Shown: positions 45,562 to 64,000 of the stretch, one piece after another
Layout of the letters: every line of letters begins with the position of its first letter
How positions within the stretch are numbered: the stretch's first letter is position 1
Source of the DNA: Omphalotus guepiniiformis
Lineage: Eukaryota > Basidiomycota > Agaricomycetes > Agaricales > Omphalotaceae
Reading direction: 5' to 3'
DNA: 64,000 nt
Assembly: GCA_028554645.1 (NCBI GenBank)
Contig: JAQOOI010000051.1
Span: 1 to 64,000 of the forward strand
Made by a program: the position numbers and the translations under genes
Notes under the pieces: generated by a model
Seen by the model: only the letters and a program-made list of their open reading frames with translations
What the model was told of the DNA's origin: nothing
The model's database searches: none

Positions 45562-45924
45562 TGTTACGGCTATGCGCCGGAACTCCGGGTCAGACCTCCG
45601 GTTTCTAGAACTTCTTTGATTTCTTCTTCCTGACATCTATTCAATCTTGCCATATGGTTCACTTTACAAATTCACGCTTTCCTATTCGCTTTTATTATTC
45701 TTTTCTACTCCGGACATCCGAACGTCGCCGACGTTCCATGTTCTTATTGTTCTTTAGTTTCATTCTTCTCACACTATTGTTTTATTACTCCGAGTATCTC
45801 CGGTAGAATACTCATATAAATACTTCACGCTTATACTGTATATACTTTAGTTTTAAATCAATTTAGTCTCCGGACTACTATCTTGAATTTCTCGTCTGAA
45901 CTCTCATCTCTCCTCGGACTTCCA
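45562..45924 (+). repeat. Probable 5' LTR of Ty3/Gypsy element D
   Basis: Begins TGTTACGGCTATGCGCCGG, exactly where the host LTR-B sequence stops. A CA end at about 45924, followed by ATC and TGGGTGCAGCACGGG as a candidate primer-binding site, suggests a 363-base LTR. The right border is tentative because no second copy is in the window. It contains CGG-rich direct repeats (TCCGG / CCGGA). Confidence 0.45.
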
Positions 45925-46135
45925 ATCTGGGTGCAGCACGGGGGGCAGTATCGAAATAATACTGCCTACTGGGTGAAGTCTTGTTGCCGGAGCAATTCGG
46001 GGCTCCTGGTTTATCTTGTCTTGTTCCTTTCGAACTCCTTCTCTCGGACCTCCTCGGAGGTCCTCACTTTCTTACCGTCTCTAGTCCGCACGGACTTAAC
46101 AGTATTTAAAACTCTTCTCTGTGCTGCTATTGATC

Positions 46136-46689
46136 ATGTCACAACATCCTACAAACCCCTTACTTGAGGCTTCACAGTCTCACGCACCATTTTACCAAGG
46201 TCGCGATCCCAATGCTCTTCGTGAGCGGCGGAGATCCGGTCTTTACTCAGTTCGCGCAAGCGAATTCGTCTCACCAAGCCGAGGCTCACGCCTTTCTCAA
46301 CAACCTCCGGTTCTATCAACATTATTTTCACCAGGTCATTTGCCTGGTTTTCGAAATCCTCCGGTAACTCCGACTCGTCGAACTTCCACAATGCCGGGAG
46401 TATTACCGATACATGAAGACGTTTCCGATACTGCTCCTGAAGAGCAGAATGACGAAGACGATGACATTATCGCAGCGGCTACGGAAGGAGAGGCTGGGGA
46501 TCAGCCGGAAGGAATAGGAGGTAATGGTGGGGATCCTGGAGAAGGCGATGAAGGTAATGGTGGTGGTGGACCAGGCCATGGAGGTCCGGGTGGACCTGGC
46601 GGGCCTGGAGGACCAGGTGGAAATGGTGGCGGTGGACCGGGTGGACCTGGAGGTCCTGGGGAACCTTCCGGGGGTACCGGTGGCACCGG
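46136..46689 (+). pseudogene. Gag of element D, N-terminal part (interrupted)
   Basis: An open frame from the ATG at 46136 encodes MSQHPTNPLLEASQ, an acidic stretch (EEQNDEDDD) and a Gly/Pro-rich linker (GGPGGPGG). It is cut after GGTG by the inserted LTR-B element at 46690. Removing that element plus one CCGG duplication joins it in frame to 63225-64000, where the capsid-like part follows. It is a Ty3/Gypsy gag interrupted by insertion rather than by decay. Confidence 0.85.
46686..46689. other. Target-site duplication (left), CCGG
   Basis: CCGG directly precedes the 3' LTR of the complete element (TGTAGTG) and is repeated directly after the other LTR at 63221-63224. It could be read as five bases with a shifted boundary, but the solo LTR at 37103 also shows four. 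Confidence 0.8.
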
Positions 46690-48533
46690 TGTAGTGACTA
46701 TGAAATGAACGAGAGAGATACTCAAATGAGCACAATCCAACTCAAATCAAAATGATGTAGGGTGAGGTGTGACTGGCGTTGTCAGAGATTCCGCACAGTT
46801 AGACGCAACAATTGAACTTCGAATCTGCAGGGTTACAGATGTCTTTATCTCAATCTGGGTGAAAAATGGCAGAGGGTATCTCAAAACACAAGATTCAGAC
46901 AGAAGGTAAGGGTGGTTTTCAGGGTTCAGGAGGGATTCAGGACAATCAATCTCGATGTTTAAACTCGATCCAATGGTCAGACAATGCAGGGAACAGTTTC
47001 AGATGCAGCACAGACAGTTTCAGCAGGCAGATTCAGCACAGACAGAACAGCAGTTTCAGCAAAGATTCAGTATCTCTTTCAATTTATCTGCCACAAGGGA
47101 CTTTACAGAAGTTTTCACAACTGGATATTTCTCGAACTGAACTCTAAAGAGCCAGGCTATATTTCGTCTAAGAAGGTTTTCCTGCTTTGGCTTGTAGCTT
47201 TGGGCAGTACTTGCTTAAGAAAATCTAAATAGATACTCTGTAAGCTATATATACTAAATCATAAAATCAAACATATATCTCAAAATTAAAAGAGTAATCT
47301 GAACAGTAAATGAGTCAAAAGTAAGTAAGTATCAATTGAGCAGAGATTGGATTCTTTTTAGGTAGTTTTCTAGGTAATTTTCCAGTTAGATAGTCAAAAG
47401 TAGGCACTGTGGGTATAGATTGGTATAAAAACAGAAATATATCGCTTTGTCCGCGTTCTAGGTGTGTTAGGGCGTACCCAGGGTATCTAAATAAAGGTCC
47501 AGATCCTGTAAATAGCAACCAGTATCCTGACAGGTGACATTCTCCTTAGTGCATTGCAAATCTGGTCCCCTATAAGTTTCTCCAAAATTGGCACATTCTC
47601 CTCTACTAGGGCAGCATTAGGAGTTGTGTAGAAGCTCTAGAGCTTATCTAGACCATGCTTCATCGTTTCTATCAGCCACAGTAAGGTACAGTAACTGTTT
47701 ATTTCAAGTTTTACCCCTATACATCTCTTTTTGGTCAGATTTGTACTCAGGTTATATTTCTTGTTTAGGATAGCTCTCAGCTTCTCCTAGGACAGTATTC
47801 TATCCCATAGTTTCGTCTAAGACCTCCAATTAGAGTGCCTTTGTCTTTCATCAAGTTCAGAGGGTTACTGAATTTCAGAGAGATACTCAGATCCAGAGAG
47901 ATACTCATTTTCAGTATCTAACTCCTTCCATCATGAGTATTGAGTAGCTAACTCATTTGTGCAGATGTAACTTTTGAATCTACTTCCATTATTACACAGA
48001 TTGGCATTTCATCTTAGTGACATTATGTTCACATAGTACTCAATGTACAGATATTTCTCTGGTAATACAATCTGCAAGATTGCCCATATTCTCAGCATTC
48101 AATCTTATGGTGCCAACTTAGTTAGCAAGACCAGCTGGAACTTTTGATCAGTCCAAAGGACTTAGATAGTTGTTCAATTGAAGTGAAAATCCATCAACCC
48201 CTTGGATTACAGTCAACAACACTTGGTAGAGTCTCTAGTTATTAGAGGGTGGGTCTGACCAACTCAATCTGGTATGGAACATTGGAATTCCAACACATCT
48301 GGAGAGGCATAACTAGTATCTCTTTGTATAACCCATTGGTCACAGTTGCTTAGTACCAGATTCAGTACTGTAGCAATCACTACACTTAGGCATTGTGAGT
48401 ACAAGTATGTTTCATGTCTTAACTAGCAGTCTGGGGTGACTCTAGTCCTTTATGTTCAGTTTCCAATGCTTGAACATTCCATATTTACTTCAATCTGATG
48501 GATTTCAGCACTGAAAGGCTTTTTGACGCAACA
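46690..48533 (-). repeat. 3' LTR of the complete element (LTR-B)
   Basis: 1844 bases, TGTAGTG ... GCAACA on the plus strand. It borders the polypurine tract at 48534. Very close to the copy at 61376-63220. Confidence 0.92.
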
Positions 48534-48546
48534 TCTCCCCCAAAGT
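48534..48546 (-). other. Polypurine tract of the complete element
   Basis: Read on the minus strand this is ACTTTGGGGGAGA, directly abutting the LTR start TGTTGCG. This is the standard position for the primer of plus-strand DNA synthesis. It fixes the element's orientation together with the primer-binding site at the other end. Confidence 0.8.
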
Positions 48547-48838
48547 AAAATAAGATCGTCCCCGATCGTACCAGATTGGCCAAAATCGAGTTAGATACAA
48601 TTATTACTAGCAGATTTGTCATAGAAGCGCATTTCATACTGTTCAATATCACAATATCACGTTTCACGGACTGCCATTAGGCAAAACTTTTCTCGATTGA
48701 TCGCCAGTCAATACATTTACATCGGCATGTGACGGCAATGTCAGACTTCGGCGAAACCCGCAATCTGCTTCTGTCGAAGTTTCAACTTAAACAGACAGTG
48801 ATTCTCGTTTTTCTTTTCACATCTCACTCCGTCCCCCG

Positions 48839-51369
48839 ATGGATGACTTTTCAAGGCAATTGGCTTCCTCTATTACTCTCAGTAGGGAGCCTTCCGAGGT
48901 ACCGGTAAGTCCTTTTTAATTCCTTTCTCTCACGCGCTGCTTTTCACAGTGTGTCACATATATATTCGAGAACCGTTCTCAATTGACGGCCTCTTTCTTT
49001 CCTTTTCTCCCTCACAGCTCGCAGACATGAATGAAGAAGACTATAAATCTCTTTCCGCCATCGTTTCAAGACTAGGTGACTTGGACCGACGTCTACGCGA
49101 CCAATCGTTTAAGGAGTTCGGCAAGGGTCTCAGGTTGAAAACCATTACCTCCGCCTTTGACGACTTGAATCTTGCCTTGGTAGGCACCAATTTCTTTTCA
49201 TCTTTGTTATAGCTAACCTCATCTTTACAGACTCGCGTTGCTTTGACTTTCAATCGCTGCCAGCGAGCACATACACATCTCCCTGACTATTTCACAGGTT
49301 CTTTTCTTTCCGTATGCAACCTCGCGCTATGGCTTCACCAAGCAAAACCAACTTCATTTATTGTGCCGCCTTGGGGCCTAAATCGCGCTAAGCTCGATTC
49401 TTTCTGTCTCAAATATACAGTAAGTATCTTTCAGATCCGTGTCATTTCTTTTTGCTAACCTTTTACAGCTTCGCAATTTATGGGAACCACTACCTCCATT
49501 TCCTAAGCTTAAGCAAACTCCGCAGCTCGAGGAGGACAACGACGACGATGAGATCTTACTCCCGCCTCTTGCCACTCTTGCTTCTTCTGCTAAGGCCGCT
49601 CGCGCTGGATCCTCGAAGACGCCGGCTCCGGTTTCAAAACCAAAACCTCAGCCAAAGGCAAAGGCCAAGACTGGTGTAACGCCCTTACCGGGTTGTTCAG
49701 TAAGTCTTTTCTTTTGTTCAAAATTGTCATTTCTTAGTCTTATCATTCTCAGATGAAACGCAAGATTTCCGACGTCGAAGCCACTGCCGAATCTACTGAG
49801 CTGACCGACGACGACGATGATGACACTGGCTTCGAGTCCGAGAGCTCTGAGCCTCCGGTCAAGAAGTCTCGCGTTTCTGAGGGTAAGAAGCCTGCAGCTG
49901 CAGCTTCAAAGGTACGTTTCCTTATAGATTTATTTATTCTTTTCTCATGTTTTCTTACACAGGGCAAGGGTAAACAGGTGGTCAAGCCAAAACCGAAGAT
50001 TCGGAAGATGCGTGTGGAAGAGCCTGCCAATGACCCAGCGTCTCGAAAGACTCGCTCCAAGGCGACTTCAATTACTGTTCCTGCATCCAGCGACGAGGAA
50101 GAGGAGAAGAAGGAAGAGGAGAAATTGGTCAAGACTGAGGGTGCTAAGGCCCCAGTCAATCTCAACGTCGACTTTGAGGCACCTCTATGGGCTTCTCGCG
50201 CTGATTTCTCTACTTCTTCTGTTTCTCTTGCTCCGGGCACTCGTTACGAGGCCCCAAATCTTCAAGTAAGTCTTGTCATTTCTTTTTATTTCATTTCCTT
50301 TTACTGACAATGTCTTTCCTCAGCGATCGGATGGACGAACACCTCAAAATCGTGCAAAGGAGGACTTTGAAGCGATACCCGGTAAGTATCTCTTTTATTT
50401 CATTTTTCTAGTGTTTGTTTAACGGTTCTTTTACAGGCCGTGTTGTCTTTGGATGGCCTTATGGCCGTCCTGTTACTTTACAGCAACTCGTTTCAGTCAA
50501 CCGCACATTCGATAGGGTGAGTATCTTTCTGACTCGAGATTAATACCCGCTAAATTTTCTTTTCGTCACTCTTTTAGTTCTTCGGCGACTCCATTTGTGC
50601 TGCCTGCGTCGGCGGTACTCACACTGAAGGTAGAGAATGCCGTCCTCAGTTCAACAGCAAGACTTTCGAATGGCGCTGCGCGACTTGCGCGAAGGACAAT
50701 CATACCTGTAGCTGGTCGTACGGTTTGGAAGGCAGCGATCAGTTGCGATGCCTTTCATACACATTGGCTCGCAGCGGCAGTACAGGTAAGTATTCCTTTC
50801 ATTTCTTTAGACATCTTTTATTAAAGGTTCTTCGTTTCTTAGTTGTCTCTCAGGAAGCTGAGCAGTTGCAGATTCTCATCGACACCTACGAGGACATGCA
50901 GAACAGCGTCTCCGCGCAGATGCGGGCGATGGAACGGGTACACCGAACGATTTTGCAGCGTCAAGATCATATCAAAGCTTCGTGTCGCGATCCTCGTCTC
51001 GTTTTACATCAGGTTCAGACTGGCGACCCGACGTTCGACTATTCGGACGAACAGCTCAAACTACTGGCTACCGCGCTTGGATGGGACATCAACCTGGTGT
51101 CTCGGGCCAGCTACATCGCTAGGAACGAAGCAGGTCATTTCATCGTGGTGGATCCAGAGGTCGAGCCGCAGCCCGGTCCTTCCAATATCCGTTCCACTCC
51201 CGTTGCTACAGCTGACATCGACGAATCGCCTCAGGCGGTCGGTGCTTCGCAAGTCACGGTCGAAGAGGACGAAGACAAGGAAGACGAGCTGGAGGAGGAG
51301 ACAGCCGGCAAGGTACTGGTGCCAGAAAGCAGTCCACTAGCTGGGAGGGACGATCCCCTCTCAGAGTGA
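48839..51369 (+). CDS. Antisense accessory gene 1: Cys-rich, acidic protein in an LTR element
   Basis: Ten exons: 48839-48904, 49018-49179, 49231-49419, 49469-49699, 49753-49911, 49963-50265, 50324-50381, 50437-50516, 50578-50785 and 50843-51369. They give 660 residues with no stop and every junction in phase. Introns are 49-113 bases, all GT-AG. Layout: an N-terminal helical domain (about 20-140, LGDLDRRLRDQ and YFTGSFLSVCNLALWLHQ), shared with the relic at 34385; a Lys/Pro/Glu-rich, probably disordered and nuclear-type middle (KKSRVSEGKK, GKGKQVVKPKPKIRK); a Cys-rich block (C423-x2-C426, C437, C450-x2-C453-x6-C460) likely to bind zinc; a coiled coil (about 490-540); and an acidic tail. Function unknown. 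It starts about 300 bases inside the 3' LTR and is antisense to gag-pol. Exons look richer in G+C than pol, closer to host genes, which suggests capture. Confidence 0.8.
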
Positions 51370-52208
51370 CTTTCAAGGCTCGGGTGCACGCATAGTTCGT
51401 ACCCCTTTTTCCCTTTACTTTCTCCATCTCTCAGTCCCAATCTCACAGATCTGTCGCTTTCTTCGATTGGCTGGGACCTGCCGTATCCGTTCGCATTTCG
51501 TCGCGGGTAGCCTTGGTGTTCAACACACCAGGTTGCCCAAATATATATATCTTAACGTATCATTTACTCGCAGATACTCCCTGTACTTACTTTATAGTAG
51601 TATAGGTCGAAGTATCTTTATCATAGTCCTGAGCTTTTATGCTCAAAAATATATATCTCATTTTTCTTGGTATGAATCTGGTGTGAAACCTAAGAAATCG
51701 GTTTGAGAGTCTCCTTCAAATTGAGTATCTAACTCGATTTTGGAGGGAAACAATTCTTTAAATGACTTAAGCCCACAATTTTCAATAAGTATCATTTCTT
51801 TTTGAGGATACATTGAATTTAATAAGTCCTTTCTGTCAAGGTTGAGAGCTTTTCGATTACTCGGCAATGCTATTCGGCTAAGTCCTCTGCGGTCAAAGCT
51901 GTCTAGATCTCCAGATTTGAGATATTTGAAATTTCAAAAATTCAAAATTTTTGGCCTTGTAAACTTTGTGTGCTCTCTCCCCCCAAGTAAAATTAACTTC
52001 AACGTCCCCGTTGATCAATCTGCTACGCTGGCTAGGCCTCATTGTGCCTGTTTGAACAGCATAGGAGTAATGACCAACTTGCAGATTTAGACGGGGTAGA
52101 CCAGATATAAAAGGTGCCGCGCAGATTCAGAACGACTCAGCACCATCTATCACTTGGTTCTACAACCCTTCCACTTTTATCATTTCTCTATCTCTACATT
52201 TTACAGTT
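51370..52208 (+). promoter_or_regulatory. Spacer with second polypurine-like tract and promoter of accessory gene 2
   Basis: Holds the 3' end of accessory gene 1 and the upstream region of gene 2. TCTCCCCCCAAGTAAAATTA at 51976-51995 followed by GTCCCCG closely resembles the sequence next to the LTR (48534 on), so the leader of gene 2 looks like a copy of the leader of gene 1. GATATAAAAGG at about 52105-52115 is a good TATA box, roughly 95 bases before the ATG. GAGTATCTAACTC occurs at 51723-51735. No gene was seen. Confidence 0.5.
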
Positions 52209-53602
52209 ATGGCCCCTAAAGGTCCCAAGACTTGGCCTGAGCGTCCTGAGTGGGTTGCCACAACGCAGCGATATCTTTCTCGAGCTACTGGAGCCATGGA
52301 GGCCAAAGATGCGGATACTGAACTGCTTGGGATGCTTATTACAGCCCTTGCTAGTCATCTTGTAAATGTTCAATCTTTGATTCCAGGTCCAGTATCTAAC
52401 TTGATTTCTTATTACAGAAGAAGTCTCTGCCTGCATATGCAGTTGCTAAGTCCGAGGAAGCGTTCACTTTGTTCGACAAAGGTGTCAATCTGGTCGCAGA
52501 TGCAGTCAAGAAGTTCCCATCTGTAGGTGAACCTGACACTTTCTCCGCCATTAAAGCTTTCCGGGACGACTTGGCAAAGCGCAGAGAGACTCTCAGCGGA
52601 TCTAAGAAGCGCAAAGTACGTTTTTATTGACCATCCCTCTCATTTCGAGTATCTAACTGCCTATCGGTGTGTAGCCAGCTAAAACTCCCGAACTTATTGA
52701 GGATGATGATGATGACGATGAAGAGATTGAGGTCATTACTGGTGACGGAGACGTTACTGTATGTATCTAACTCCTGAGTACCTAACTCAAATCTCAACAT
52801 GGTCTTTCTTTTCTTAGATGGCAGATGGACCTTCCCTTGGGCTTTCTGCGTCGATCCACGCTCCCAATAAGGATAACAAGGACTCTAGCAAGGACAAAAC
52901 CAAAGGTTCTCCCACTACTACCACAGTTCATAAGCCTTCCAAGGAAAAAGTAGTAATTACTTCTCCAAGGGTAAGCAGATTTATGTTCAGAACTGTTCAT
53001 TCATTTCTCTAGACTGATGTACCATGGTCACTTTTACAGGCCACCTCAGTTGGACCCAAAGATGTAAGTTTTTAGTTCCATCTGGAGTTGCTCAAGTAGT
53101 TCCATGTACTGATCATAAATGTTCTTGCAGAATGAACCTATTCCTGAGCCCCACAAGGTGATTGTCATGAAGAAGCCTCGTATTGAGAACCCAATCGTCA
53201 ACCTTAGAGAGGAGACAGACCGTGAGTAGTCACCCAATCTGCGGTTTTTCGAGTTTCTAACTCAATTATCCTGCAGATGAGCGCAAACTCCGGGAGAGTG
53301 GAGAAGAGATTGTGACTCGTATCACTGCTCTGTTCCCTTTCATGGACTTGGACCACTTCTCTCCTGAGGTTCTTCAATCAATTTCCAACTTCTTGAAGAC
53401 AGAACTCAGTGTTCATCAACATGCCATTCAGTATCATCATTCTCAGTACAGATTTGCCTACAAGGAGTTTTCCCGTCTGGAATTGCTCCGAAGACAGAAG
53501 GAGAAGGCTTACAGGGCCAACCAGAGTCCCTTGGAGTCTGGTCCAGGTACTGCTGATGATCCAGCTCCTTTCCATGCATTTCCATCTGCAGACATTCTCT
53601 GA
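52209..53602 (+). CDS. Antisense accessory gene 2: acidic/coiled-coil protein in an LTR element
   Basis: Seven exons: 52209-52361, 52418-52615, 52675-52758, 52818-52970, 53040-53063, 53131-53221 and 53277-53602, giving 342 residues. All six introns (55-69 bases) are GT-AG and in phase; exon 5 is only 24 bases. The N-terminus is MAPKGPKTWPERPEW, then a helical region (about 18-110), a basic KKRK followed by an Asp/Glu run (LIEDDDDDDEEIEV), a Ser/Thr/Lys-rich linker, and a C-terminal helical domain (ITALFPFMDLDHFSPEVLQ then FAYKEFSRLELLRRQKEKAY). No known domain was recognised. It ends 200 bases from the end of pol on the other strand (convergent). Three introns carry GAGTATCTAACTC-like motifs. 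Function unknown; intactness argues that it is maintained. Confidence 0.75.
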
Positions 53603-53803
53603 CTTTAATGTTACATCTGGACATCTCAGTATCATTTATGGGCAGTTTACACGGTATTGGTACATCGTATAGGACATCCTCAGACACCCTTTATGTTTAT
53701 CTTAGTAGTGCATACTACTGTTACCCACTTTTTACTTTCATCTGCAGTTAGGTAGTCACTTTTCAGTGTCTATCTCTTACTTTGTTCAAATATAGTGTGT
53801 TTA

Positions 53804-56800
53804 TCATTTATTTTGTGAAGATTGAGACCTGGTCTGGACTGGAGCGTCCCAATCTGGTTCTTCTTCATCTGCATCGTTTGCAGATTGTAGTTCTTCATCA
53901 CTGGACTCATCAAGATCTTCATCTTCAGCAGGAATTCTCAGTTGAGGAATACTGTCAAAGATGTAATCTCTCTCAAGTTCAGGGTCTAACTCAAAGTTAT
54001 CATTGACCATCTCTTCTAGTTGTTCACTAGTTAGGTCTATAAGTTCATGAATGTTCTCAGGCAGTTCAATTGGTTCATATCTAGCTACATGGGGTAGTAC
54101 TCTGAAGGCCGCAACCTTTTCTCTGAGTACTGTACCATCCATCTGGGCCACAATGTAGGATCCCCCTTTGGTTCTCCTTATTACAATCATGGGTCCCAGG
54201 TACCTAGGATACATCTTTCTGTCCAAGTTCTTTTCAACTTGTGTATTTCTGACTTGTATAAGTGTACCAGGTTTGAAATCAAAGTCTCTGATAACATTTC
54301 TGTATTCTTCTTCATATTGTCTAAGAGTCTCTTTCTTGGTTGTATCAATTCTAGATATCATTTCCTGCACATGGGTTCTATGCTTAGCTAGAGCTTGTGC
54401 CCTATAGCCAATAAGTTCCTCATATGTCAAGATTCTATCTGGAAGTTTTACTAACCATGTAGATTCAACAATATCCAAGGGTAGGATAGGTTCAGCTCCA
54501 GTAACAAGGAAGTATGGTGAACATCCAAGTCCTTTTCTAGCTGTAATTCTATCTGCCCAGAAGACATGTTTGAGAAACCACCACCATCTCTTTAGATCTC
54601 CACCTGTAGCTTTTGCCAAGGCAGTTCTAATGTCAAAGTGGGCTCTCTCAATCTTGCCATTTGCTTGGGAATTGTAAGGAGATATAGTAATTCCTTTAAT
54701 TCCATATTTATCTTCTAGCCATTTAAGCATAGCTCGCATCTGGGGTGCATTATCAGTTACTACTTCATCCGGACATCCCCATCTGCATATAATATCATCA
54801 AAGAACCATTCTCCCAATGATCTAGCATTGTCAGATCTTAAGGCTCTTCCTTCAGACCAGGATGAGAGTGCACATCTGCCATGTACAACATCCTTGCAAC
54901 CATTACTTGGAGGTGATACTTTGAACACATCTACATGAATCTTCTGAAACAGGGAGGGAGTGTGTGTAAGAGTGGGGGGAATCTTCAACAATTCTAATTT
55001 TCGGTTCTGGCAGATTTGGCAGGATTTGACAAACCAATTGACATCTCCATTCAAATCTGGCCACCAAAAACGCTTCTCTATGAGAGCTTTTGTTGCAAAC
55101 ATTCCTTTATGTCCCAGATGGTCATGAGCAGCATGCATCATGTACATCCTTTTCTCTTTAGGCACAACCAGTCTATGCTGGCCTCCTGTATCATCATTCC
55201 TTCTATAGAGTCTACCATCTCTGTCTACAAAGAACTTTACAGCCCTGGAAATGACCTTTTTCATAGCAGTCTCACCTAGGTGAGCTAGAGGCTGATTGCC
55301 CTGCAGGTACCAATCTTTGATTAGGTCTAGTTGTTCATCCAGTTCCTTTGTAGATGCAGATCTGTGATCCTCTCTATATGGGTGTTCATGTTTCCATTCA
55401 GTACCTCCTTCAGGTATAACCAAGGTCTGTGCAAACTGCAACATCGAGTTAGATACTGGATGTTGAATTGCTAACAGCTCTCTAATGGAATTCAAGTGAC
55501 GTTCTTCTTCAAGAGCTTCTTGCAAATCGTCCTCAAAGTCGTCTATTGACTTTGCAACTTCCTGCAAGTAACCACCTCGTGTATCTATTTCATCTTTAAA
55601 GGCTTCAAAATCAAAGGGTACCTCAGATTCACCATCTCCCATTCTGAATTTCACCGGCAGACCATCATCTTCATCAACAAATGAATCCGGATCTCTAGAT
55701 GCCGCTCTTTCAGTTGGTATGGTTCCTCTAGGTGGTCTAGATAGTCCATCTGGTCCCTTATGTTCAGTGCCCTTGATGTGTACCAAGGTGAAGTGGAACT
55801 TCCTTATTTCTTCAATCCATCTGTTTATAGTTGCATTGGGACCACTACTGGGTTTGTCAAGCATTCCTTTAATATAGCTTGCATCTGTTTCCACAGTAAG
55901 ATCCCTACATCCATATGTCTGGTAGTATGTTTGTTGTAAGGCCAACATCAAGCCATATAGTTCTCTCTTGGGTTGAGAAAACCTTGCTTCTCTCTCATTT
56001 AAGGTAATAGAACCCATCCAATTGTAGAACTTTTTCTTTGAATCTGCAGGGTCTCTCTGATATAGTTGGAAACCTACTGCCATCCAGGAAGTATCTACTG
56101 AAAGGGTGATTCCAGTACTTAAATTATAGTCAATAGGACGGAGTGCTGGAGCATTCCTAATCCCATCTTTAATCATTTCTACAGCTTCCAGTTCTGCAGG
56201 ACCCATTTGAAAAGGCACATCTCCAGTTAAGATTGTCAAAGGTTTTGCTTTCTTGGCATAATCCTTTATGAACATCCTCATCTGACCAGCAGTGCCCAAA
56301 AATGACCGGATATCTTTCTTCTCAGACCATTCTGATGCATCACAAGTCAGGACAACTTCAGCTAGCCTTTCCACTGGCTTTTCTCCTTCATAACTGACAT
56401 GATGTCCAACAACATCACCTTCAGCTACACAGATGAAAGCTTTGGTCCCTGCAAAGGTACCACCAGCATGTTTCATTCTTTGCACAATTCTGTTCATATT
56501 CTGCAGATGCTCCCACACAAACCTTCTGATGCCAGAATTTTCAGGGATAGTTTCATAACCTCCATCTGCAGTTTCATATCTGCTGACAGGCCCTTTTACT
56601 GGTACATCATCAATGTAAGGTTTAGTTACATGTGGAATTTCATCTCTGAAGATATATGTAACATCATCATGATAGATAGGGACAGAGTTTGTCCAACCCA
56701 TAGGTAACTTCACTAATCTATGTGGGCCAAAAGGTGTTTGGAAGGTGGTAAGATCTCTTGAACTTTCATCAACCAGCCTCTCATCATACCCAACAAAGAT

Positions 56801-57847
56801 ATCCAGTAAACCCAAACATGCTCTTCCAGAGAAGCTTCTAGCTATATCTGCAGTTGCAGGAGGAATTCCTGAATGTTGAATAGTCACTTTATTGAGTGGT
56901 TCTAAACTATGGACCAATCTTAAGCTTTTCCCATCTTTCTTTAAGACACAGAACCATCTGGATCTATAGGATGAACTAGAAGGCTCATATACACCAGCAT
57001 CTATTTTGTCCTTAATCATTTTACACACTTGATCATAGATCCCTGGAGGTATAGGAATATTCCTTTCTATCCAAGGGGTGTGTGGTAACACTGGAAACTT
57101 TACTGGAGGAAAGAACTCTGTATTAAAGGTTCCTCCTTCAGATGCTTCCCATGCAAATGCTTTTTCTTGGACTTTCATAAGATGGTGTACAAGTTTCATT
57201 TCTTCAGGCCATAAGAAACCTTCATTATGATTCTTGTCTACAATTTCTTTTCTTTCTTGAGAGTACCTCTCACCAGGAGTGAAATCTGGAGGATGAGTAG
57301 GTAACTCAGGCATATCTTTTAACGGATCTCCAATTATTTTTCTTTCAATCCGGAACTCCGCAGGTAAGGTAGCTTTAACAGGTTTGACCTTAATAGCAAC
57401 TGGTTTGTACTTTCTAGAAGCCAAAACAGTCACCAATCTGGCCATTTTGTTGCCATTCTTATCTCTACTCCATCTGGGTCTTGAAGATTGGACTGGTTTC
57501 GGTTCTCTTTTGACCGTTTTACCCTTATTCATCCTCTTTTCAGTTCCAGATGCGGGTTCCGAAGTGTGATTAAGTACCGTGCAAGTATCTAAGTCTGAAT
57601 TCTGAGTATCTAAGTGCTCTTTTGAATTCAAATTTAAATTTTCTCGCCAGGTACAGAACACTTGTTTCTTTTCTGAGTCTACAGACCGATTTAAATACGA
57701 TCTAACCGAATCTGCAGCCGCTATATCGTTTTCTCTTATGATGGATTCAGCTGCAAACACAAATGCCTCAGCCTTTTCAGGTTCTGAAAACAATTCATTG
57801 TCTGGCAGCTTATATCCAGCAATTGTGGCATTGCCATCTTCATCCAT
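53804..57847 (-). CDS. Pol polyprotein: reverse transcriptase, RNase H, integrase
   Basis: A 1347-residue open frame without stops. Reverse transcriptase lies around residues 245-450 with the active site Y411-I-D-D414 and the upstream GLLDIFVGYD and LPMGWTNS blocks. RNase H follows (LSVDTSWMAVGF; VETDASYIKG; HIKGTEHKGPDGLSR). Integrase has an H-H-C-C finger (HDHLGHKGM ... CQICQ) and the triad D973 (HVDVF), D1032 (TDNAPQ) and E1067 (NGKIERAH). The reverse transcriptase-RNase H-integrase order is that of Ty3/Gypsy. The frame is open upstream of the first Met to the slippery site at 57904-57910, so the protein is probably made by -1 frameshifting from the protease frame. All key residues are present, so it looks functional. 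Confidence 0.9.
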   Translation of the reverse strand: MDEDGNATIAGYKLPDNELFSEPEKAEAFVFAAESIIRENDIAAADSVRSYLNRSVDSEKKQVFCTWRENLNLNSKEHLDTQNSDLDTCTVLNHTSEPASGTEKRMNKGKTVKREPKPVQSSRPRWSRDKNGNKMARLVTVLASRKYKPVAIKVKPVKATLPAEFRIERKIIGDPLKDMPELPTHPPDFTPGERYSQERKEIVDKNHNEGFLWPEEMKLVHHLMKVQEKAFAWEASEGGTFNTEFFPPVKFPVLPHTPWIERNIPIPPGIYDQVCKMIKDKIDAGVYEPSSSSYRSRWFCVLKKDGKSLRLVHSLEPLNKVTIQHSGIPPATADIARSFSGRACLGLLDIFVGYDERLVDESSRDLTTFQTPFGPHRLVKLPMGWTNSVPIYHDDVTYIFRDEIPHVTKPYIDDVPVKGPVSRYETADGGYETIPENSGIRRFVWEHLQNMNRIVQRMKHAGGTFAGTKAFICVAEGDVVGHHVSYEGEKPVERLAEVVLTCDASEWSEKKDIRSFLGTAGQMRMFIKDYAKKAKPLTILTGDVPFQMGPAELEAVEMIKDGIRNAPALRPIDYNLSTGITLSVDTSWMAVGFQLYQRDPADSKKKFYNWMGSITLNEREARFSQPKRELYGLMLALQQTYYQTYGCRDLTVETDASYIKGMLDKPSSGPNATINRWIEEIRKFHFTLVHIKGTEHKGPDGLSRPPRGTIPTERAASRDPDSFVDEDDGLPVKFRMGDGESEVPFDFEAFKDEIDTRGGYLQEVAKSIDDFEDDLQEALEEERHLNSIRELLAIQHPVSNSMLQFAQTLVIPEGGTEWKHEHPYREDHRSASTKELDEQLDLIKDWYLQGNQPLAHLGETAMKKVISRAVKFFVDRDGRLYRRNDDTGGQHRLVVPKEKRMYMMHAAHDHLGHKGMFATKALIEKRFWWPDLNGDVNWFVKSCQICQNRKLELLKIPPTLTHTPSLFQKIHVDVFKVSPPSNGCKDVVHGRCALSSWSEGRALRSDNARSLGEWFFDDIICRWGCPDEVVTDNAPQMRAMLKWLEDKYGIKGITISPYNSQANGKIERAHFDIRTALAKATGGDLKRWWWFLKHVFWADRITARKGLGCSPYFLVTGAEPILPLDIVESTWLVKLPDRILTYEELIGYRAQALAKHRTHVQEMISRIDTTKKETLRQYEEEYRNVIRDFDFKPGTLIQVRNTQVEKNLDRKMYPRYLGPMIVIRRTKGGSYIVAQMDGTVLREKVAAFRVLPHVARYEPIELPENIHELIDLTSEQLEEMVNDNFELDPELERDYIFDSIPQLRIPAEDEDLDESSDEELQSANDADEEEPDWDAPVQTRSQSSQNK

Positions 57848-57882
57848 TTCAATACAAACAGCTACCTCTCCCTGATCTCTTA

Positions 57883-58941
57883 TCAGTTCATTGAGGTCCG
57901 ATGAAAATTTTGAGAGTCTCCCTCATTTTTCACAGGGACACTCGCAGATTTCTGTGTTTCAGGGACAAGCTTTGGTTCACCAGGAATATGTTTAACCTTG
58001 ATTCCTCTACCTCTGTCATATGTTCCCATTGTACACTTCATTCCACTGTTTGGATCTGTAATGGTGATCTCTTGTTCTCCAGTTTCAAAGTTTCTGACTA
58101 CACTGCTTGTTAACACATCAAATGGTCTTCCCAAAAGAACATCATAAGGCACTTTATCTATTATGTGAATCTGCATATAGATAGTTATTTCTCCAAAGGT
58201 AAATGGTACATTTCTTGCTAGTCCCCTAGTAGCCTGTAATTGACCATTTGCACTTTGCATATGGATCACAGTCTCTGGGTCCCATCTTAAACCAAGTCCA
58301 ATAGCTACTCTTGTATCCATGGACACGATTTGAGAACCACTATCAACTACTGTCTCAACTTGTTGATCAGAGTGATTAATCTTTGGGTAGATTGCCTTTA
58401 GACTGTCAGTCTGGCTGGCTACTATAATGATCTTGTTCCTCTCATCTGGAGGTACATCTTTCTGATACTGGTCCACAACATCCTTGTGTACCACTGAGCC
58501 TTTCTTAAGGTCATCTGTGTCTTCATCTAGGACAATAAACACATCTTCCCTTTCATAGGCCATATCTTCAATAAAGACCATATAATTTGCCTGTACCAGA
58601 TTGACATCTTCTTCTGGTAGAATACCATCAGGATCATCTTCATCCCTTACTTCATGAACAAAAGCCTTTACAGGACGCTTATACACTCTGTTGTTCTTCA
58701 ATTTTCTCTGCATAATCTTCTGAAGTGCCGGAGATATAGCAATGAGGTCCCCACTACTTATATCTATCTCAGATCTAAAGATTTTGTCTGCAATTTCTTC
58801 TGCTAGACCCGGTTTGAATAGTGAGTTTCTAAGCTTGAAATCGGGCTCAGATTTACGCGGAGGCTTTGTGTATACAATAGCATTCCTTGTATCATTACTC
58901 ATTCCATCTTTTAGTTCCAGATTGAGCTCCTTCAGTCTCAT
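57883..58941 (-). CDS. Retroelement aspartic protease
   Basis: 352 residues. The active site is D200-S-G202 in VVDSGSQIVSM, and the retropepsin flap/C-terminal signature DVLLGRPFDVL follows. The N-terminal 150 residues are acidic and of unknown role. The frame opens just after a stop near 58970, so Met 58941 may not be the real start: the upstream 128-residue frame (59281-58895) looks like the same protein in another frame. It overlaps the pol frame by the interval between the slippery site and the stop at 57883. Confidence 0.85.
   Translation of the reverse strand: MRLKELNLELKDGMSNDTRNAIVYTKPPRKSEPDFKLRNSLFKPGLAEEIADKIFRSEIDISSGDLIAISPALQKIMQRKLKNNRVYKRPVKAFVHEVRDEDDPDGILPEEDVNLVQANYMVFIEDMAYEREDVFIVLDEDTDDLKKGSVVHKDVVDQYQKDVPPDERNKIIIVASQTDSLKAIYPKINHSDQQVETVVDSGSQIVSMDTRVAIGLGLRWDPETVIHMQSANGQLQATRGLARNVPFTFGEITIYMQIHIIDKVPYDVLLGRPFDVLTSSVVRNFETGEQEITITDPNSGMKCTMGTYDRGRGIKVKHIPGEPKLVPETQKSASVPVKNEGDSQNFHRTSMN
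57904..57910 (-). promoter_or_regulatory. Candidate -1 frameshift site, protease to pol
   Basis: Read on the minus strand in the protease frame, the codons CAA AAT TTT contain the heptamer A-AAT-TTT, which fits X-XXY-YYZ. Slipping back one base enters the pol frame, which stays open to the integrase end. The protease stop is 20 bases downstream. A stimulatory structure was not tested. Confidence 0.55.
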
Positions 58942-59281
58942 TTGACCTATTCTGGCTCCCTACAGGCATTCCCTTTGGTATAGGTGGCCTATCTATTGCC
59001 TTTACATGATCAAACGGACGGTTAGATACTCTCCGTGCAACATCGTTGTTATTTTCAGAGGGAGATTCAATCTCCTCAGTGTCAGAATCAACGGGTAGTT
59101 CAAAACGAACGGGCTCTTTTCTCATAGCAGGGGGTCTGTATTTCTCCCTTTCAGATGGTCTTAGTGTAGGTAGTAACACTTCAACTCTCTTTTTCTTTAC
59201 AAGTTTATTTTCCTCAGGAGATTGACCTGTTTTGTGAGAAGGATTCTGAGTATATACAGCTTCTTCACCAATCTCCTTCAT
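58895..59281 (-). CDS. Protease-region upstream frame (128 residues)
   Basis: Encodes a basic/acidic stretch (ENKLVKKKRVEVLLPTLR, then ELPVDSDTEEIE) with no known domain. It begins nine bases after the gag stop and overlaps the protease frame by 47 bases. Gag can enter it by a -1 slip at 59293-59299, because the frame is open across the gag stop. Getting from here into the protease frame would need a +1 shift, an intron or a repaired indel. I read it as the N-terminal part of the protease protein. Confidence 0.5.
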   Translation of the reverse strand: MKEIGEEAVYTQNPSHKTGQSPEENKLVKKKRVEVLLPTLRPSEREKYRPPAMRKEPVRFELPVDSDTEEIESPSENNNDVARRVSNRPFDHVKAIDRPPIPKGMPVGSQNRSNETEGAQSGTKRWNE

Positions 59282-59289
59282 TGGAAACT

Positions 59290-61203
59290 CTAGTTTTTCG
59301 ACTCAGAGTTGTTTTCCCCTCGTTTCAGAATCTGCTTAGTTTCAGATTTAGCTGCTGGTGCCAGATTCTGCAAAGTATTGCAAACCTGACTGAATTGAGC
59401 AACAAGGCTGTTGATAGCATCTAATGAACTACTTTGAGAGGGACCTGCTATAGCAGAATCCTCATCCTCAAAAGCATACAAGTTCTGGTCAACATGAGAG
59501 GAAGGTTGTTCCCATCCATGTCTTTTGGCAATTTCCTCAATCTTCTCCTTCTTAGACCGAGTATCAGATGGATCAGCTCTTGGCCAATATACTCCATCTT
59601 TCAATGCCCATTTACCAGCACTATTTTTGATCATCCACCCCAACCTGATAAATCTAAGTTGATGTGGACAGTCCATAGATCTATGTCCAGGCTCATCACA
59701 CATATAGCAATTGGAGTCAGCATGAGTATTGTTATTCACAGATGACATCTGGGACGATCTTTGTACACTATTGTGTCCATTAGAGTTCATTCCAGGTCCA
59801 GATTGGGAATTTGGAGCATTCATGTTCATCCTAACTGAGCTAGAAGTTGCTTGGGTCATTTTTGCCAAGTTAGCAACTGTCTCAGATAGCTTTGCAAGAG
59901 CTGCCAGATTCGTTTCCTGGGCTTGTCTAATCTGGTTAAACTGGTTCTGGTGACTATCCACTGTTGCAGACAATTTCATTGCCCACTGATCTGGTTCTGA
60001 CTTCACAGTAGATGCTACTTGGTAAGGATCATATAACTTCCTTGTAGCATTCTGCTCAGTTGTTGGGAGTATCCTAGAGTATCCTTCTGCCAGATTTGGA
60101 CCATTCAAGAATAAACCAAAGTTGTATCCCCCTGCTCTTTTTACAGAACAGAGTTTTTCAGCCTCAGACATTACATCTTTCAGAGTAAAAGGGTCATCCT
60201 CTCTCTGAACTTGTAAGTGGCCATTGATCACTTTGTTTTCTAAGCGGTCCAGAAGTTTCCTTCTGAAGGGTTCATCTAGGGCACTCAAGAAACCAGCTAC
60301 AGCTTCTGAGTTTGATACTACAGGTGTAGTACCAGAAGATAGTTTCTCATACTCAATCTCATACTCTCTTTTAAATGCCATCAGTTTCTGAATAGCACCA
60401 AGCACTATGAGCTTATATGCATCAATGATAGCATACAATCTTTGTCTAGATCCCAGTCCTCTATCTGCAGATTCAGGGAAATTTTTCATTAATGCCTCTT
60501 TGAAAGCATCCCAATCCAAATCTTTAACAGCTTGAAGCCGTTGAAACTCTTCACGGGTATGGAACTCCATGTATCTGAGTGCCAACATCACTTTAGCCGC
60601 ATCTGTTTTAGTTCCGGTTGACACAAAGATGCCTTCCAGCTCTGCCAACCATGCAACCAATTCAGATGGATGTTTCTTATCGAAGATGGGGGCCTGCTTA
60701 GAGACTTTAGGTAGTTTCTCATTTTGCAACTCTTTAGCTGCAGGAACAGGAATCTGCATTCCTGTTGCATTTCCAAAAATGAAGATCTCTTCCATCTCAA
60801 CAGGTCCTTGGGTAGGTCCTTGTTGTTGGGGAGCTTCATTCCCAGTAGCATTGTCATGAGTAGACATATTGTTTCTCGGGTTCCTTATTATTTTAACAGG
60901 GATTCTTTTATGTGTCAAGGCAAAATATTGAGGACTGTTAACAAAGTTCCTCTTATTTTTCTTGTATCTAGCTGAGAGTTCAGATAAATCTGGAGGTGTA
61001 TTCCGTTCAGGAATCGTACTTAGGGACGAAAGAGACGAAAGGGAACTTGAATCTGGTTCAGGTATGACTTCTTTCTCTTTTCCTTTGGAACTTTTCCTTC
61101 TGGATGACTGGTTCAGTGACAGTTCTTCTGTTCCAGCTCTCTCAGAATTCTTAGTCTTTCTAGGACGTGTGTTTCTCTGTGAGCTGCTAATTTTGACAAG
61201 CAA
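59290..61203 (-). CDS. Gag polyprotein with CCHC zinc knuckle
   Basis: 637 residues. The N-terminus is Ser/Arg/Lys-rich. A capsid-like helical domain (about 150-330) contains LVAWLAELEGIFVSTGTKTD and ALRYMEFHTREEF. The nucleocapsid knuckle C499-x2-C502-x4-H507-x4-C512 follows, then an acidic C-terminus. It binds and packages the element RNA into particles (family knowledge). It is the first gene after the 170-base leader with the primer-binding site, and its frame ends in AAA AAC TAG. Confidence 0.9.
   Translation of the reverse strand: MLVKISSSQRNTRPRKTKNSERAGTEELSLNQSSRRKSSKGKEKEVIPEPDSSSLSSLSSLSTIPERNTPPDLSELSARYKKNKRNFVNSPQYFALTHKRIPVKIIRNPRNNMSTHDNATGNEAPQQQGPTQGPVEMEEIFIFGNATGMQIPVPAAKELQNEKLPKVSKQAPIFDKKHPSELVAWLAELEGIFVSTGTKTDAAKVMLALRYMEFHTREEFQRLQAVKDLDWDAFKEALMKNFPESADRGLGSRQRLYAIIDAYKLIVLGAIQKLMAFKREYEIEYEKLSSGTTPVVSNSEAVAGFLSALDEPFRRKLLDRLENKVINGHLQVQREDDPFTLKDVMSEAEKLCSVKRAGGYNFGLFLNGPNLAEGYSRILPTTEQNATRKLYDPYQVASTVKSEPDQWAMKLSATVDSHQNQFNQIRQAQETNLAALAKLSETVANLAKMTQATSSSVRMNMNAPNSQSGPGMNSNGHNSVQRSSQMSSVNNNTHADSNCYMCDEPGHRSMDCPHQLRFIRLGWMIKNSAGKWALKDGVYWPRADPSDTRSKKEKIEEIAKRHGWEQPSSHVDQNLYAFEDEDSAIAGPSQSSSLDAINSLVAQFSQVCNTLQNLAPAAKSETKQILKRGENNSESKN
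59293..59299 (-). promoter_or_regulatory. Candidate -1 frameshift site at the gag stop
   Basis: Minus-strand G-AAA-AAC directly before the gag TAG (59292-59290). The A-site codon AAC in an A-run is the part shared with retroviral gag-pro shift sites. A -1 slip would read through into the frame of 59281-58895. The first base is G instead of A, so efficiency is uncertain. Confidence 0.45.
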
Positions 61204-61355
61204 ACTCTAAGTTATAAAACTTATAGATGGTTCAACAACTTCAAGGAAATTGTTGCTAAGTGAGGAACAGGGCAAAGTTCAACACAGAAAAGTCCAGATT
61301 TATTTCCAGACACGTGTAAATACACAGATAGTTCAATTATCAAGTCTAAAGCCAC

Positions 61356-61373
61356 CCCTCGCGGTGGGCTCCA
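61356..61373 (-). other. Candidate primer-binding site
   Basis: Two bases after the 5' LTR end (CTACA), the minus strand reads TGGAGCCCACCGCGAGGG. It begins with TGG, as expected for pairing with a tRNA CCA end. The tRNA was not identified. Confidence 0.6.
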
Positions 61374-61375
61374 GA

Positions 61376-63220
61376 TGTAGTGACTATGAAATGAACGAGA
61401 GAGATACTCAAATGAGCACAATCCAACTCAAATCAAAATGATGTAGGGTGAGGTGTGACTGGCGTTGTCAGAGATTCCGCACAGTTAGACGCAACAATTG
61501 AACTTCGAATCTGCAGGGTTACAGATGTCTTTATCTCAATCTGGGTGAAAAATGGCAGAGGGTATCTCAAAACACAAGATTCAGACAGAAGGTAAGGGTG
61601 GTTTTCAGGGTTCAGGAGGGATTCAGGACAATCAATCTCGATGTTTAAACTCGATCCAATGGTCAGACAATGCAGGGAACAGTTTCAGATGCAGCACAGA
61701 CAGTTTCAGCAGGCAGATTCAGCACAGACAGAACAGCAGTTTCAGCAAAGATTCAGTATCTCTTTCAATTTATCTGCCACAAGGGACTTTACAGAAGTTT
61801 TCACAACTGGATATTTCTCGAACTGAACTCTAAAGAGCCAGGCTATATTTCGTCTAAGAAGGTTTTCCTGCTTTGGCTTGTAGCTTTGGGCAGTACTTGC
61901 TTAAGAAAATCTAAATAGATACTCTGTAAGCTATATATACTAAATCATAAAATCAAACATATATCTCGAAATTAAAAGAGTAATCTGAACAGTAAATGAG
62001 TCAAAAGTAAGTAAGTATCAATTGAGCAGAGATTGGATTCTTTTTAGGTAGTTTTCTAGGTAATTTTCCAGTTAGATAGTCAAAATGTAGGAACTTTGGG
62101 TATAGATTGGTATAAAAACAGAAATATATCGCTTTGTCCGCGTTCTAGGTGTGTTAGGGCGTACCCAGGGTATCTAAATAAAGGTCCAGATCCTGTAAAT
62201 AGCAACCAGTATCCTGACAGGTGACATTCTCCTTAGTGCATTGCAAATCTGGTCCCCTATAAGTTTCTCCAAAATTGGCACATTCTCCTCTACTAGGGCA
62301 GCATTAGGAGTTGTGTAGAAGCTCTAGAGTTTATCTAGACCATGCCTCATCGTTTCTATCAGCCACCGTAAGGTACAGTAACTGTTTATTTCAAGTTTTA
62401 CCCCTATACATCTCTTTTTGGTCAGATTTGTACTCAGGTTATATTTCTTGTTTAGGATAGCTCTCAGCTTCTCCTAGGACAGTATTCTATCCCATAGTTT
62501 CGTCTAAGACCTCCAATTAGAGTGCCTTTGTCTTTCCATCAAGTTCAGAGGGTTACTGAATTTCAGAGAGATACTCAGATCCAGAGAGATACTCATTTTC
62601 AGTATCTAACTCCTTCCAGCATGAGTATTGAGTATCTAACTCATTTGTGCAGATGTAACTTTTGAATCTACTTCCATTATTACACAGATTGGCATTTCAT
62701 CTCAGTGACATTATATCCACATAGTACTCAATGTACAATATTTCTCTGGTAATACAATCTTCAAGATTGCCCATATTCTCAGCATTCAATCTTATAGTGC
62801 CAACTTAGTTAGCAAGACCAGCTGGAACTTTTGATCAGTCCAAAGGACTTAGATAGTTGTTCAATTGAAGTGAAAATCCATCAACCCCTTGGATTACAGT
62901 CAACAACACTTGGTAGAGTCTCTAGTTATTAGAGGGTGGGTCTGACCAACTCAATCTGGTATGGAACATTGGAATTCCAACACATCTGGAGAGGCATAAC
63001 TAGTATCTCTTTGTATAACCCATTGGTCACAGTTGCTTAGTACCAGATTCAGTACTGTAGCAAACACTACACTTAGGTATTGTGAGTACAAGTATGTTTC
63101 ATGTCTTAACTAGCAGTCTGGGGTGACTCTAGTCCTTTATGTTCAGTTTCCAATGCTTGAACATTCCATATTTACTTCAATCTGATAGATTTCAGTACTG
63201 AAAGGCTTTTTGACGCAACA
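61376..63220 (-). repeat. 5' LTR of the complete element (LTR-B)
   Basis: 1845 bases with the same termini as 46690-48533. About twenty scattered differences between the two were seen by eye. It should contain the promoter for gag-pol on the minus strand. Confidence 0.92.
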
Positions 63221-63224
63221 CCGG
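63221..63224. other. Target-site duplication (right), CCGG
   Basis: Partner of 46686-46689, directly after the GCAACA end of the LTR. Confidence 0.8.
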
Positions 63225-64000
63225 TGATGAAGATTTTAGGCGGATGATGCAGGAGTTTCTTACCACTAGCATGGCTGGTTTTACTAACATGGCTAGGGCA
63301 TTTAATACACAGGCATCCGCGGCTCCGGAGAGCAAATTGCGCTTGAAGGAGCCAGACGTTTTTGACGGCTCGGATCCGCGGAAGCTCCGAAACTTCATCA
63401 TTTCCTTGGCCCTTCACCACTCAGATCGGCCTCAATATTTCTCTTCCGACGATCGTAAGATCACTTTCGCGCTCTCTTATTTGTCTGGATCAGCTCTGGA
63501 ATATTTCCAGCCAGAGCTACTGAACCCGGATCCGGACGATCCTCCGGCATGGATGGTCAATTATCAGGCCTTCATGCAAGAGCTGATGGAAAATTTCGGA
63601 GAGTACGATATGGAAGCGGAGGCTGAGCAACGCCTCAGTGGACTCAAAATGAGGGATACGGATCGAATCCGTAATTACAATGTAAAGTTTGGAGCCTACG
63701 CAGCAATGGTTCTTTGGGATCAAGCTGCTCTACGCTGGGCCTATTATCAAGGTTTGCCATCTCGTATTAAGGACGAACTAATGAGGATCGAGTATCCAAA
63801 AACCTATCAGGGGACCAGGAAAGAGGCCACCAAGATTGATGCTCGTTACTGGGCTCGCTCTGCTGAAAAGCAGCGAGAACAACGGACGTCTGGTGGAGGC
63901 TCCGGGAACTCTGGAAGTGGCTCCTCCACTTCACAATCTGGCTCGCAGAAGAAGAAGAGTGGCAATCCCAACAAGCCCTCCTCTTCCTCTAACAACCGCT
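63225..64000 (+). pseudogene. Gag of element D, capsid part (continues past the window)
   Basis: Open to the window end. DEDFRRMMQEF is followed by the Ty3/Gypsy capsid domain (LKEPDVFDGSDPRKLRNFI, ITFALSYLSGSALEYFQP, FGEYDMEAEAEQRLSGLKM, YYQGLPSRIKDELMR) and a Ser/Gly-rich linker (SGGGSGNSGSGSSTS). It is in frame with 46136-46689 once the inserted element is removed. The zinc knuckle and pol of D should lie beyond 64000. Confidence 0.85.

Follow-up and report, generated by a model that had tools for sequence, protein, structure and literature searches.

A conserved pair of intron-rich antisense genes in Ty3/Gypsy retrotransposons of Omphalotus guepiniiformis

Two multi-exon genes lie antisense to gag-pol

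We analysed a 64,000-nucleotide (nt) stretch of Omphalotus guepiniiformis DNA (contig JAQOOI010000051.1, assembly GCA_028554645.1; hereafter the window), in which a preliminary description made from the letters alone had placed a long terminal repeat (LTR) retrotransposon at 46690-63220. The element is there, with correct coordinates, counts and lengths, and it carries two genes, A and B, that sit between pol and the 3' LTR, antisense to gag-pol. The two genes with 15 introns that had been described were borne out as well: every intron is GT-AG and 49-113 nt long, and the models are stop-free.

48839-51369, plus strand: gene A, 10 exons, 660 amino acids
48839-48904, 49018-49179, 49231-49419, 49469-49699, 49753-49911, plus strand: gene A exons 1-5
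49963-50265, 50324-50381, 50437-50516, 50578-50785, 50843-51369, plus strand: gene A exons 6-10
52209-53602, plus strand: gene B, 7 exons, 342 amino acids
52209-52361, 52418-52615, 52675-52758, 52818-52970, plus strand: gene B exons 1-4
53040-53063, 53131-53221, 53277-53602, plus strand: gene B exons 5-7

The element itself is a Ty3/Gypsy LTR retrotransposon with gag-pol on the minus strand. Its LTRs (46690-48533 and 61376-63220) show 17 differences over 1842 aligned bases (99% identical), and CCGG is present at both flanks of the pair. The protease open reading frame (ORF) lies upstream of pol, the order is protease, reverse transcriptase (RT)-RNase H, integrase, and the closest RT is that of Ty3; the LTR pair, the flanking repeat and the sequences resembling a primer-binding site and a polypurine tract agree with this placement. 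In PDB searches, pol residues 273-720 matched Ty3-G RT/RNase H (E 2e-34) and residues 892-1124 the integrase of foamy virus (PFV); the RT core model was absent from the Pfam matches of the element's ORFs. The first 18 bases of the putative primer-binding site are identical in representatives of three related families (2, 3 and 4, below).

46690-48533, minus strand: 3' LTR (LTR pair), holding sites of the family word described below
61376-63220, minus strand: 5' LTR (LTR pair)
46686-46689: left 4-bp flanking repeat CCGG (read from alignment output)
63221-63224: right 4-bp flanking repeat CCGG (read from alignment output)
61355-61373, minus strand: putative primer-binding site TGGAGCCCACCGCGAGGGG
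59290-61203, minus strand: gag ORF (sub-threshold zinc-knuckle and Ty3 capsid matches)
57883-58941, minus strand: aspartic protease ORF (domain search)
53804-57847, minus strand: pol ORF with RT, RNase H and integrase (domain and PDB searches)

The gene pair recurs at the same place in related families

As queries against the genome from which the window comes (80 contigs, 42.5 Mb) we used B exon 7 and a 137-residue part of A exon 10, accepting E values up to 1. B gave 128 matches, of which two are pieces of one decayed copy and 126 fall into four families:

Family 1 (this element): 44 B matches, at least 90% identity
Family 2: 17 B matches, 77-81% identity
Family 3: 35 B matches, 33-37% identity
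Family 4: 30 B matches, 26-37% identity

The three weakest family 4 matches (E 0.2-1) are each adjoined by A or pol. Antisense pol follows 0.3-1.7 kb downstream of B in 116 of the 128 matches and same-sense pol in none; A lies on the same strand 1.5-4 kb upstream in 103, and both neighbours are in place in 96. Seen from pol, B is present at 116 of 121 entries of families 1 to 4 (drawn from 150 scored of 195 candidates). Stops within exon 7 of B, frameshifts uncounted, are few: 1/44, 0/17, 5/35 and 1/30 in families 1 to 4. One or two representatives each were fetched for families 2, 3 and 4, and these have LTR pairs that are 99.8-100% identical and the same order of parts. Their pol is 90% (family 2), 69-70% (family 3) and 67-72% (family 4) identical to that of the window element; for A and B the values are 60 and 74% in family 2 and 23-35% in families 3 and 4. 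This mapping relative to pol, proposed in the preliminary description and run within the source genome, thus confirmed a recurrent position: the genes are not a single occurrence found outside retroelements elsewhere. A and B are a conserved module of the element and not cargo in transit.

A fifth family is represented by 29 pol entries at 56-58% identity, none of which has a B match. In the single locus fetched (L029) the anatomy is that of families 1 to 4. From the LTR edge, where a purine tract and a hairpin are found, the order is a gene with some eight exons and a six-cysteine block, another hairpin whose purine tract is poor, a TATA box, a gene with some six exons and, last, antisense pol. 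The introns that flank the zinc block, like the first and last ones in B, agree in phase with those of the other families, and their places look alike by eye.

Some copies depart from this arrangement. At two loci (L025 4834-5298 and L026 4983-5447) a 155-residue ORF, 71-81% identical to the end of family 3 A, lies antisense and just upstream of pol of an unrelated Gypsy element; these two copies are possibly a second, independent uptake. Another locus (L028, C46:82001-92000) holds a rearranged family 4 element in which A and its LTR are inverted beside the protease gene. At one more (L024 3672-7395, C19:1125001-1135000), broken family 4-like pieces of A and B have a purine tract between them.

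Introns and coding sequence are conserved

The family 2 relative has the same 9 + 6 introns, all GT-AG, and 13 of the 15 fall at an equal alignment column and phase in families 1 and 2, the other two being off by one column; the intron sequences themselves are 58% identical. Three B introns and one A intron are common in column and phase to all of families 1 to 4, and one further A position is common to three of the four, so that several intron positions are held in common at 24-35% protein identity. This conservation is strong indirect evidence that the splicing of A and B is real. A gene finder trained on the family 1 and 2 genes gave back identical family 1 exons; against the hand-made family 2 models it added upstream A exons and skipped part of a B exon, and therefore it is not independent proof of exon structure. 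A TATA box, read by eye, precedes B in all five family representatives: it is TATAAA some 47-113 nt 5' of B in families 2 to 5, and in the window it is the following:

52106-52113, plus strand: TATAAAAG, about 100 nt 5' of the B start codon (by eye)

The ratio of non-synonymous to synonymous substitution rates (dN/dS), computed with a Nei-Gojobori script, is 0.15 for A and 0.13 for B between families 1 and 2, at synonymous sites near saturation for both genes; gag gives 0.14, protease 0.09 and pol 0.11. Within family 1, we compared exons 1-5 of A between the window and three other copies: the changes per copy are 53-57 synonymous and 14-17 non-synonymous (dN/dS 0.06-0.08), and no projected splice site is lost. 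For B, we took the seven next-best DNA matches (98-100% identical); the frame is intact in all of them and the splice sites are complete in six, and each carries 2-4 synonymous and 1-3 non-synonymous changes, giving ratios of 0.07-0.30 on few changes. The comparison among copies suggested in the preliminary description thus gave 0.06-0.15 for A and B, and both genes are under purifying selection similar to that on gag and pol. Such values, together with the same place in most copies of four families, support the option already raised there that the genes serve the element.

Gene A carries a six-cysteine block

50596-50709, plus strand: six-cysteine zinc-cluster-like block in exon 9 of gene A (pattern)

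The zinc-binding block thought likely at the outset was confirmed as a pattern, with six cysteines in A of all five family representatives. In family 1 it reads C-x2-C-x10-C-x12-C-x2-C-x6-C and in family 5 C-x2-C-x6-C-x8-C-x2-C-x7-C, a spacing near that of classical Zn2Cys6 clusters. When the window and loci L009-L035 were scanned in six frames, the pattern appeared in gene A of these elements and in one other gene; the same scan did not find it unbroken in one family 4 copy (L027). The Pfam model PF00172 (Zn_clus) does not match A, leaving it below the Zn2Cys6 cut-off, and the best zinc-domain match in PDB is the AlcR Zn2Cys6 domain at E 3.4, far from significant. Searches of a set of 5.8 billion proteins returned nothing for B (E 0.001), for A (E 0.001) or for a five-protein alignment of A from four families (E 0.01), and a scan of viral contigs with the B alignment gave 600 pattern matches and no confirmed one. 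A comparison of A with B gave no support to their being paralogues.

Another repeated gene also has a six-cysteine zinc-cluster pattern (L017 at about 1735, minus strand; L024 8768-9637, plus strand). Its L024 copy has a weak Pfam Zn_clus match (E 0.0083) and perhaps comes from a different mobile element.

A polypurine tract and a covarying hairpin precede each gene

48534-48553, minus strand: 3' polypurine tract, GGGGGAGA next to the LTR in element sense, plus an A/T-rich stretch
48554-48567: hairpin GATCG/CGATC with TCCC loop, upstream of A
51975-51989, minus strand: internal copy of the polypurine tract
51999-52014: hairpin TCAACG/CGTTGA with TCCC loop, upstream of B

A second copy of the tract-plus-hairpin block at the 3' LTR stands between A and B, and each gene is thus preceded by such a block. 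We compared ten such blocks, centred by hand on the hairpin, among which one family 5 block fits badly. Pairing holds in 98% of 49 pair cells, of which 12 have changed on both sides, and it falls to at most 52% when the partner columns are slid by 1-3 positions. Taking the ten blocks jointly, none of 500 shuffles reached the observed score for pairing plus covariation; the count of two-sided pairs was reached by 61/500 and that of pair types by 42/500. Tested singly against shuffles, the hairpins give P values from 0.005 to 0.29, and hence the claim rests on the ten blocks together. In two of them (f1A and f5A) the longest stem found differs from the proposed hairpin. Genome-wide, the tract pattern occurs 161 times, against once for its control. 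Two roles are conceivable: priming of plus-strand synthesis by the internal tract, or a part in a promoter for the block.

Gene A is a mosaic

48950-49850, plus strand: mosaic segment of gene A, 85-92% identical to four other family 1 copies

The flanks of this segment are mostly 97-100% identical among the family 1 copies; one copy drops again to 86-92% from about 50150 and another to 93% at 50001-50150. A sharper case is found in family 4, where two elements (C72 and C20) are 95-100% identical per 250-base step outside the A region (pol dS 0.047) and have A proteins that are 67% identical, falling to 47% over the first 236 aligned residues, with saturated synonymous sites. Their alignment ends on the left 10 nt inside the A frame; on the right the end is gradual and near the internal tract. 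A alleles have thus been exchanged between elements while under purifying selection. Positive selection as the cause of the mosaic was rejected, since the family 1 alleles differ mostly at synonymous sites. As the A segment lies between two putative plus-strand primers, a swap would be expected when two RNAs are copied together, and a mosaic A between two polypurine tracts would offer a natural case for recombination during reverse transcription.

A is absent from its place in 23 of the 126 B matches. We considered whether a missing A could be a swapped allele and rejected this at the two of the 23 loci that were examined, both of which are internal deletions: L034 (C78:634000-639200) and L035 (C59:336600-340900) are deletion derivatives without all or most of A, the former having additionally lost the start of B. 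Derivatives of this kind fit a product that works in trans. In family 2, 8 of 17 B matches have no A match in place.

Words specific to family groups are scattered over the elements

In families 1 and 2 a 13-base word, (G/C)AGTATCTAACTC, recurs on both strands in unrelated surroundings. The family 1 element, with one LTR, holds 17 sites within two mismatches of GAGTATCTAACTC, and an exact copy is present between A and B:

51723-51735, plus strand: exact copy of the family motif, GAGTATCTAACTC

Words were counted in a single representative of each family, from which one of the two LTRs had been omitted; for family 5 the count covers the 6.5 kb available. Counts are given in the order of families 1 to 5, with those in the 20 kb window background where available:

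AGTATCTAA: 8, 15, 0, 0, 0 (background 0)
CTAGACCC: 1, 1, 13, 0, 1
TCGGCGA: 2, 0, 14, 0, 0 (background 3)
CTCGAGC: 2, 1, 21, 0, 3 (background 6)
CGCGGTA: 1, 1, 0, 1, 14
CCGCG: 7, 8, 5, 6, 84 (background 19)

Second-order simulations (300 each) never reached the word counts in families 1, 2, 3 and 5. Fairer controls for the words are the other families, reversed words and a genome-wide count. In the last of these, GAGTATCTAACT has 398 occurrences and its reversed control has 3, and 71 of the 100 matches listed fall between -7 and +10.5 kb of a family 1 or 2 B match, a zone of about 2.5% of the genome; some of the remaining places may be solo LTRs like those in the window. The 10-base word of family 5 gave no discrimination genome-wide (102 against 60 for the reversed control). 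Dispersed, group-specific motifs, as expected of a VANC-like way of working (see below), are therefore found strongly in families 1 and 2, which share one, in family 3 and in family 5, and the candidate target words are AGTATCTAACT for family 1, CTAGACCC for family 3 and CGCGGTA for family 5.

Plus- and minus-strand sites number 6/2, 8/7, 9/4 and 9/5 in families 1, 2, 3 and 5, and sites on both strands favour recognition as DNA. Per kb, the words are denser in the counted non-coding part in families 1 to 4, most so in families 2 and 4. Within the window, four of the six B introns (52362-53276) hold the family word or a near form, and the family 1 A introns hold no site.

A possible trans-acting role

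We propose, with a probability of about 45%, that A and B are a trans-acting accessory module whose products recognise the motif of their family group, most likely against silencing or for setting transcription. On this view the two genes would long have belonged to this Gypsy lineage as a unit, and separate, internal promoters would drive their transcription against gag-pol and let them be made apart from it. Introns placed antisense are kept out of the splicing of the genomic RNA, which lets an intron-rich gene travel with the element; the introns here would accordingly go unrecognised in the packaged RNA and survive retrotransposition. A is probably a nuclear zinc-cluster DNA-binding protein and B an acidic, helical partner. 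A, perhaps together with B, would bind the word scattered over the elements of its group, and the pair would act in trans on all copies, countering silencing or setting the level of transcription as VANC does for the VANDAL elements of Arabidopsis. A further proposal, which we think rather doubtful, is that of a self-recognition system in which the antisense zinc-cluster protein reads the group word and A is an exchangeable cassette between hairpin-marked polypurine tracts, swappable among co-packaged elements.

Several observations weigh against such a role. The words were picked from the very sequences in which they were counted; no convincing motif was found in family 4, where ACCGGA (n=9) stays within the simulated range (maximum 10), and in family 5 the words are slightly rarer in non-coding than in coding DNA. 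In family 1, B introns hold 5 of the 17 sites; all five are in gene sense and come with CTAAC, and three stand at branch-point distance (20-22 nt from the 3' end of the intron). Part of the word signal in this family may thus be splicing; splicing can explain these B-intron sites and not those in LTRs, spacers, gag-pol or on the opposite strand. Families 1 and 2 share one motif though their A proteins are 60% identical, and family 4 elements with very different A genes share LTRs, so that a change in A is not matched by one in the motif. Constraint on A is weaker over its final 57 aligned codons (dN/dS 0.43). Only the zinc block links A of family 5 to the other A proteins, and that weakly (hhalign probability 6%, E 0.006); homology of B in this family was not detectable by profile comparison, its assignment being by anatomy alone. 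Pfam, PDB and protein searches gave no significant Pfam model, homologous protein or solved structure for A or B. The AlphaFold2 model of the zinc block is poor (predicted local distance difference test 59), and because of this and the missing Pfam match we call the block Zn2Cys6-like only.

An alternative is that A and B act in the particle, in reverse transcription, integration or nuclear import, and that the motifs are unrelated cis signals for splicing or transcription. Selection on both genes resembles that on gag, the hairpin-polypurine block before each gene ties the region to reverse transcription, some intron motifs of families 1 and 2 overlap the branch-point-like CTAAC, and plant antisense extra ORFs have been proposed to resemble retroviral accessory factors (PMC7264820, available text). 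However, this leaves unexplained why words that differ between groups stand in LTRs, spacers and gag-pol on both strands, and the features of A suggest a DNA-binding regulator rather than a structural protein; we regard this alternative as possible, at well under even odds.

Less probable still is self-limitation, in which A or B would be a repressor acting on dispersed sites and damping transcription of all copies of the family. One protein with many dispersed, group-specific sites recalls the stoperators of mycobacteriophages, which are likewise dispersed and differ in consensus among phage groups (PMC6550527, available text). Nothing indicates the sign of the effect, however, and the LTR pairs of families 2 to 4, at 99.8-100% identity, point to recent movement despite any repression. 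That A and B are captured host genes in transit, as first suggested, or are conserved by hitch-hiking only, is very improbable: their intron-rich structure is host-like, no homologue was found that marks them as viral and the decayed pieces at L024 have no pol within the 10 kb fetched, but the 126 B matches in four families share intron places and purifying selection, and no free host copy was found among the 4 inspected of 21 A matches without B in place.

Relation to known systems

Boty of Botrytis and the plant elements Grande, RIRE2, Retand and PvRetro13 are described with additional antisense ORFs in the interval from pol to the 3' LTR, the function of these ORFs being called unknown (PMC7264820, available text). 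The view in the preliminary description that nothing similar was known to it from a fungal element was therefore too strong. In the text available to us, Grande gene23 is driven by a promoter of its own and its product is nuclear (PMC7264820), and the Retand ORFs carry TRP28, a predicted DNA-binding domain, in a paper whose main text never uses the word 'intron' (PMC11963269). The genes described here resemble this class in place, antisense orientation and presence in most copies. They differ from it in being two, each with at least five introns in the representatives, in the six-cysteine block of A, in the hairpin-purine block before each gene and in the group-specific motifs; TRP28 (PF04195), which would mark the Retand lineage, was not found in A or B, nor was another Pfam domain. 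Newly seen in this analysis are the group-specific dispersed motifs, the purine tract with a covarying hairpin before A and B, and the mosaic A. A literature search at title and abstract level, with most subscription papers outside its coverage, did not turn up a fungal element described as carrying such a pair of intron-rich genes, and a term search of a Laccaria transposable element paper found no mention of antisense.

The closest working model for A and B is VANC. VANC21 binds YAGTATTAY, and related VANCs affect other families (PMC5735166, available text); the likeness lies in an element-encoded product and in trans action on its own family, which for A and B is proposed. VANDALs are, in contrast, Mutator-like DNA transposons, and the proposed resemblance is one of way of working; as far as the source text extends, VANC21 sites are in non-coding DNA and VANC targets are often tandem repeats, whereas the words here are dispersed and occur also in coding DNA. 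If the link between protein and motif is true, a VANC-like strategy would be used by a retrotransposon, and in a fungus. With five families that have the gene pair in one genome, and a candidate target word for three family groups, the question becomes one of a direct binding test.

In Sireviruses, short motifs specific to the element are repeated, and additional polypurine tracts lie upstream of the 3' LTR (PMC2829016, available text). They are, however, plant Ty1/Copia elements, with palindromic motifs in the LTRs and before env, for which the same text proposes no cognate protein; their upstream tracts are described there without an inverted repeat, whereas a hairpin accompanies both tracts here. 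Mycobacteriophage stoperators combine many dispersed sites and a group-specific consensus with one encoded repressor (PMC6550527, available text), but that repressor is a helix-turn-helix protein, and no sequence relation to A or B is expected. The zinc block resembles Zn2Cys6 fungal transcription factors of the AlcR type in its two CxxC...C halves and six cysteines, and differs from them in the longer, variable spacing in families 1 to 4 and in the missing PF00172 match. Fungal DNA transposons, for their part, carry TET/JBP genes that are thought to aid escape from silencing (PMC12730594, available text), which makes an anti-silencing role of A and B plausible.

Other retroelement sequences in the window

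The window also contains further LTRs of this family, solo or broken and about 96-97% identical (25028-26066, 37103-38945 and 44399-45562), and LTR pieces that are more distant (27077-27637 and 35030-36982). Several of the motif copies beyond the element fall in or near these sequences. The element itself appears, by eye, to be inserted in the plus-strand gag frame of another Gypsy (46000-46689 and 63221-64000).

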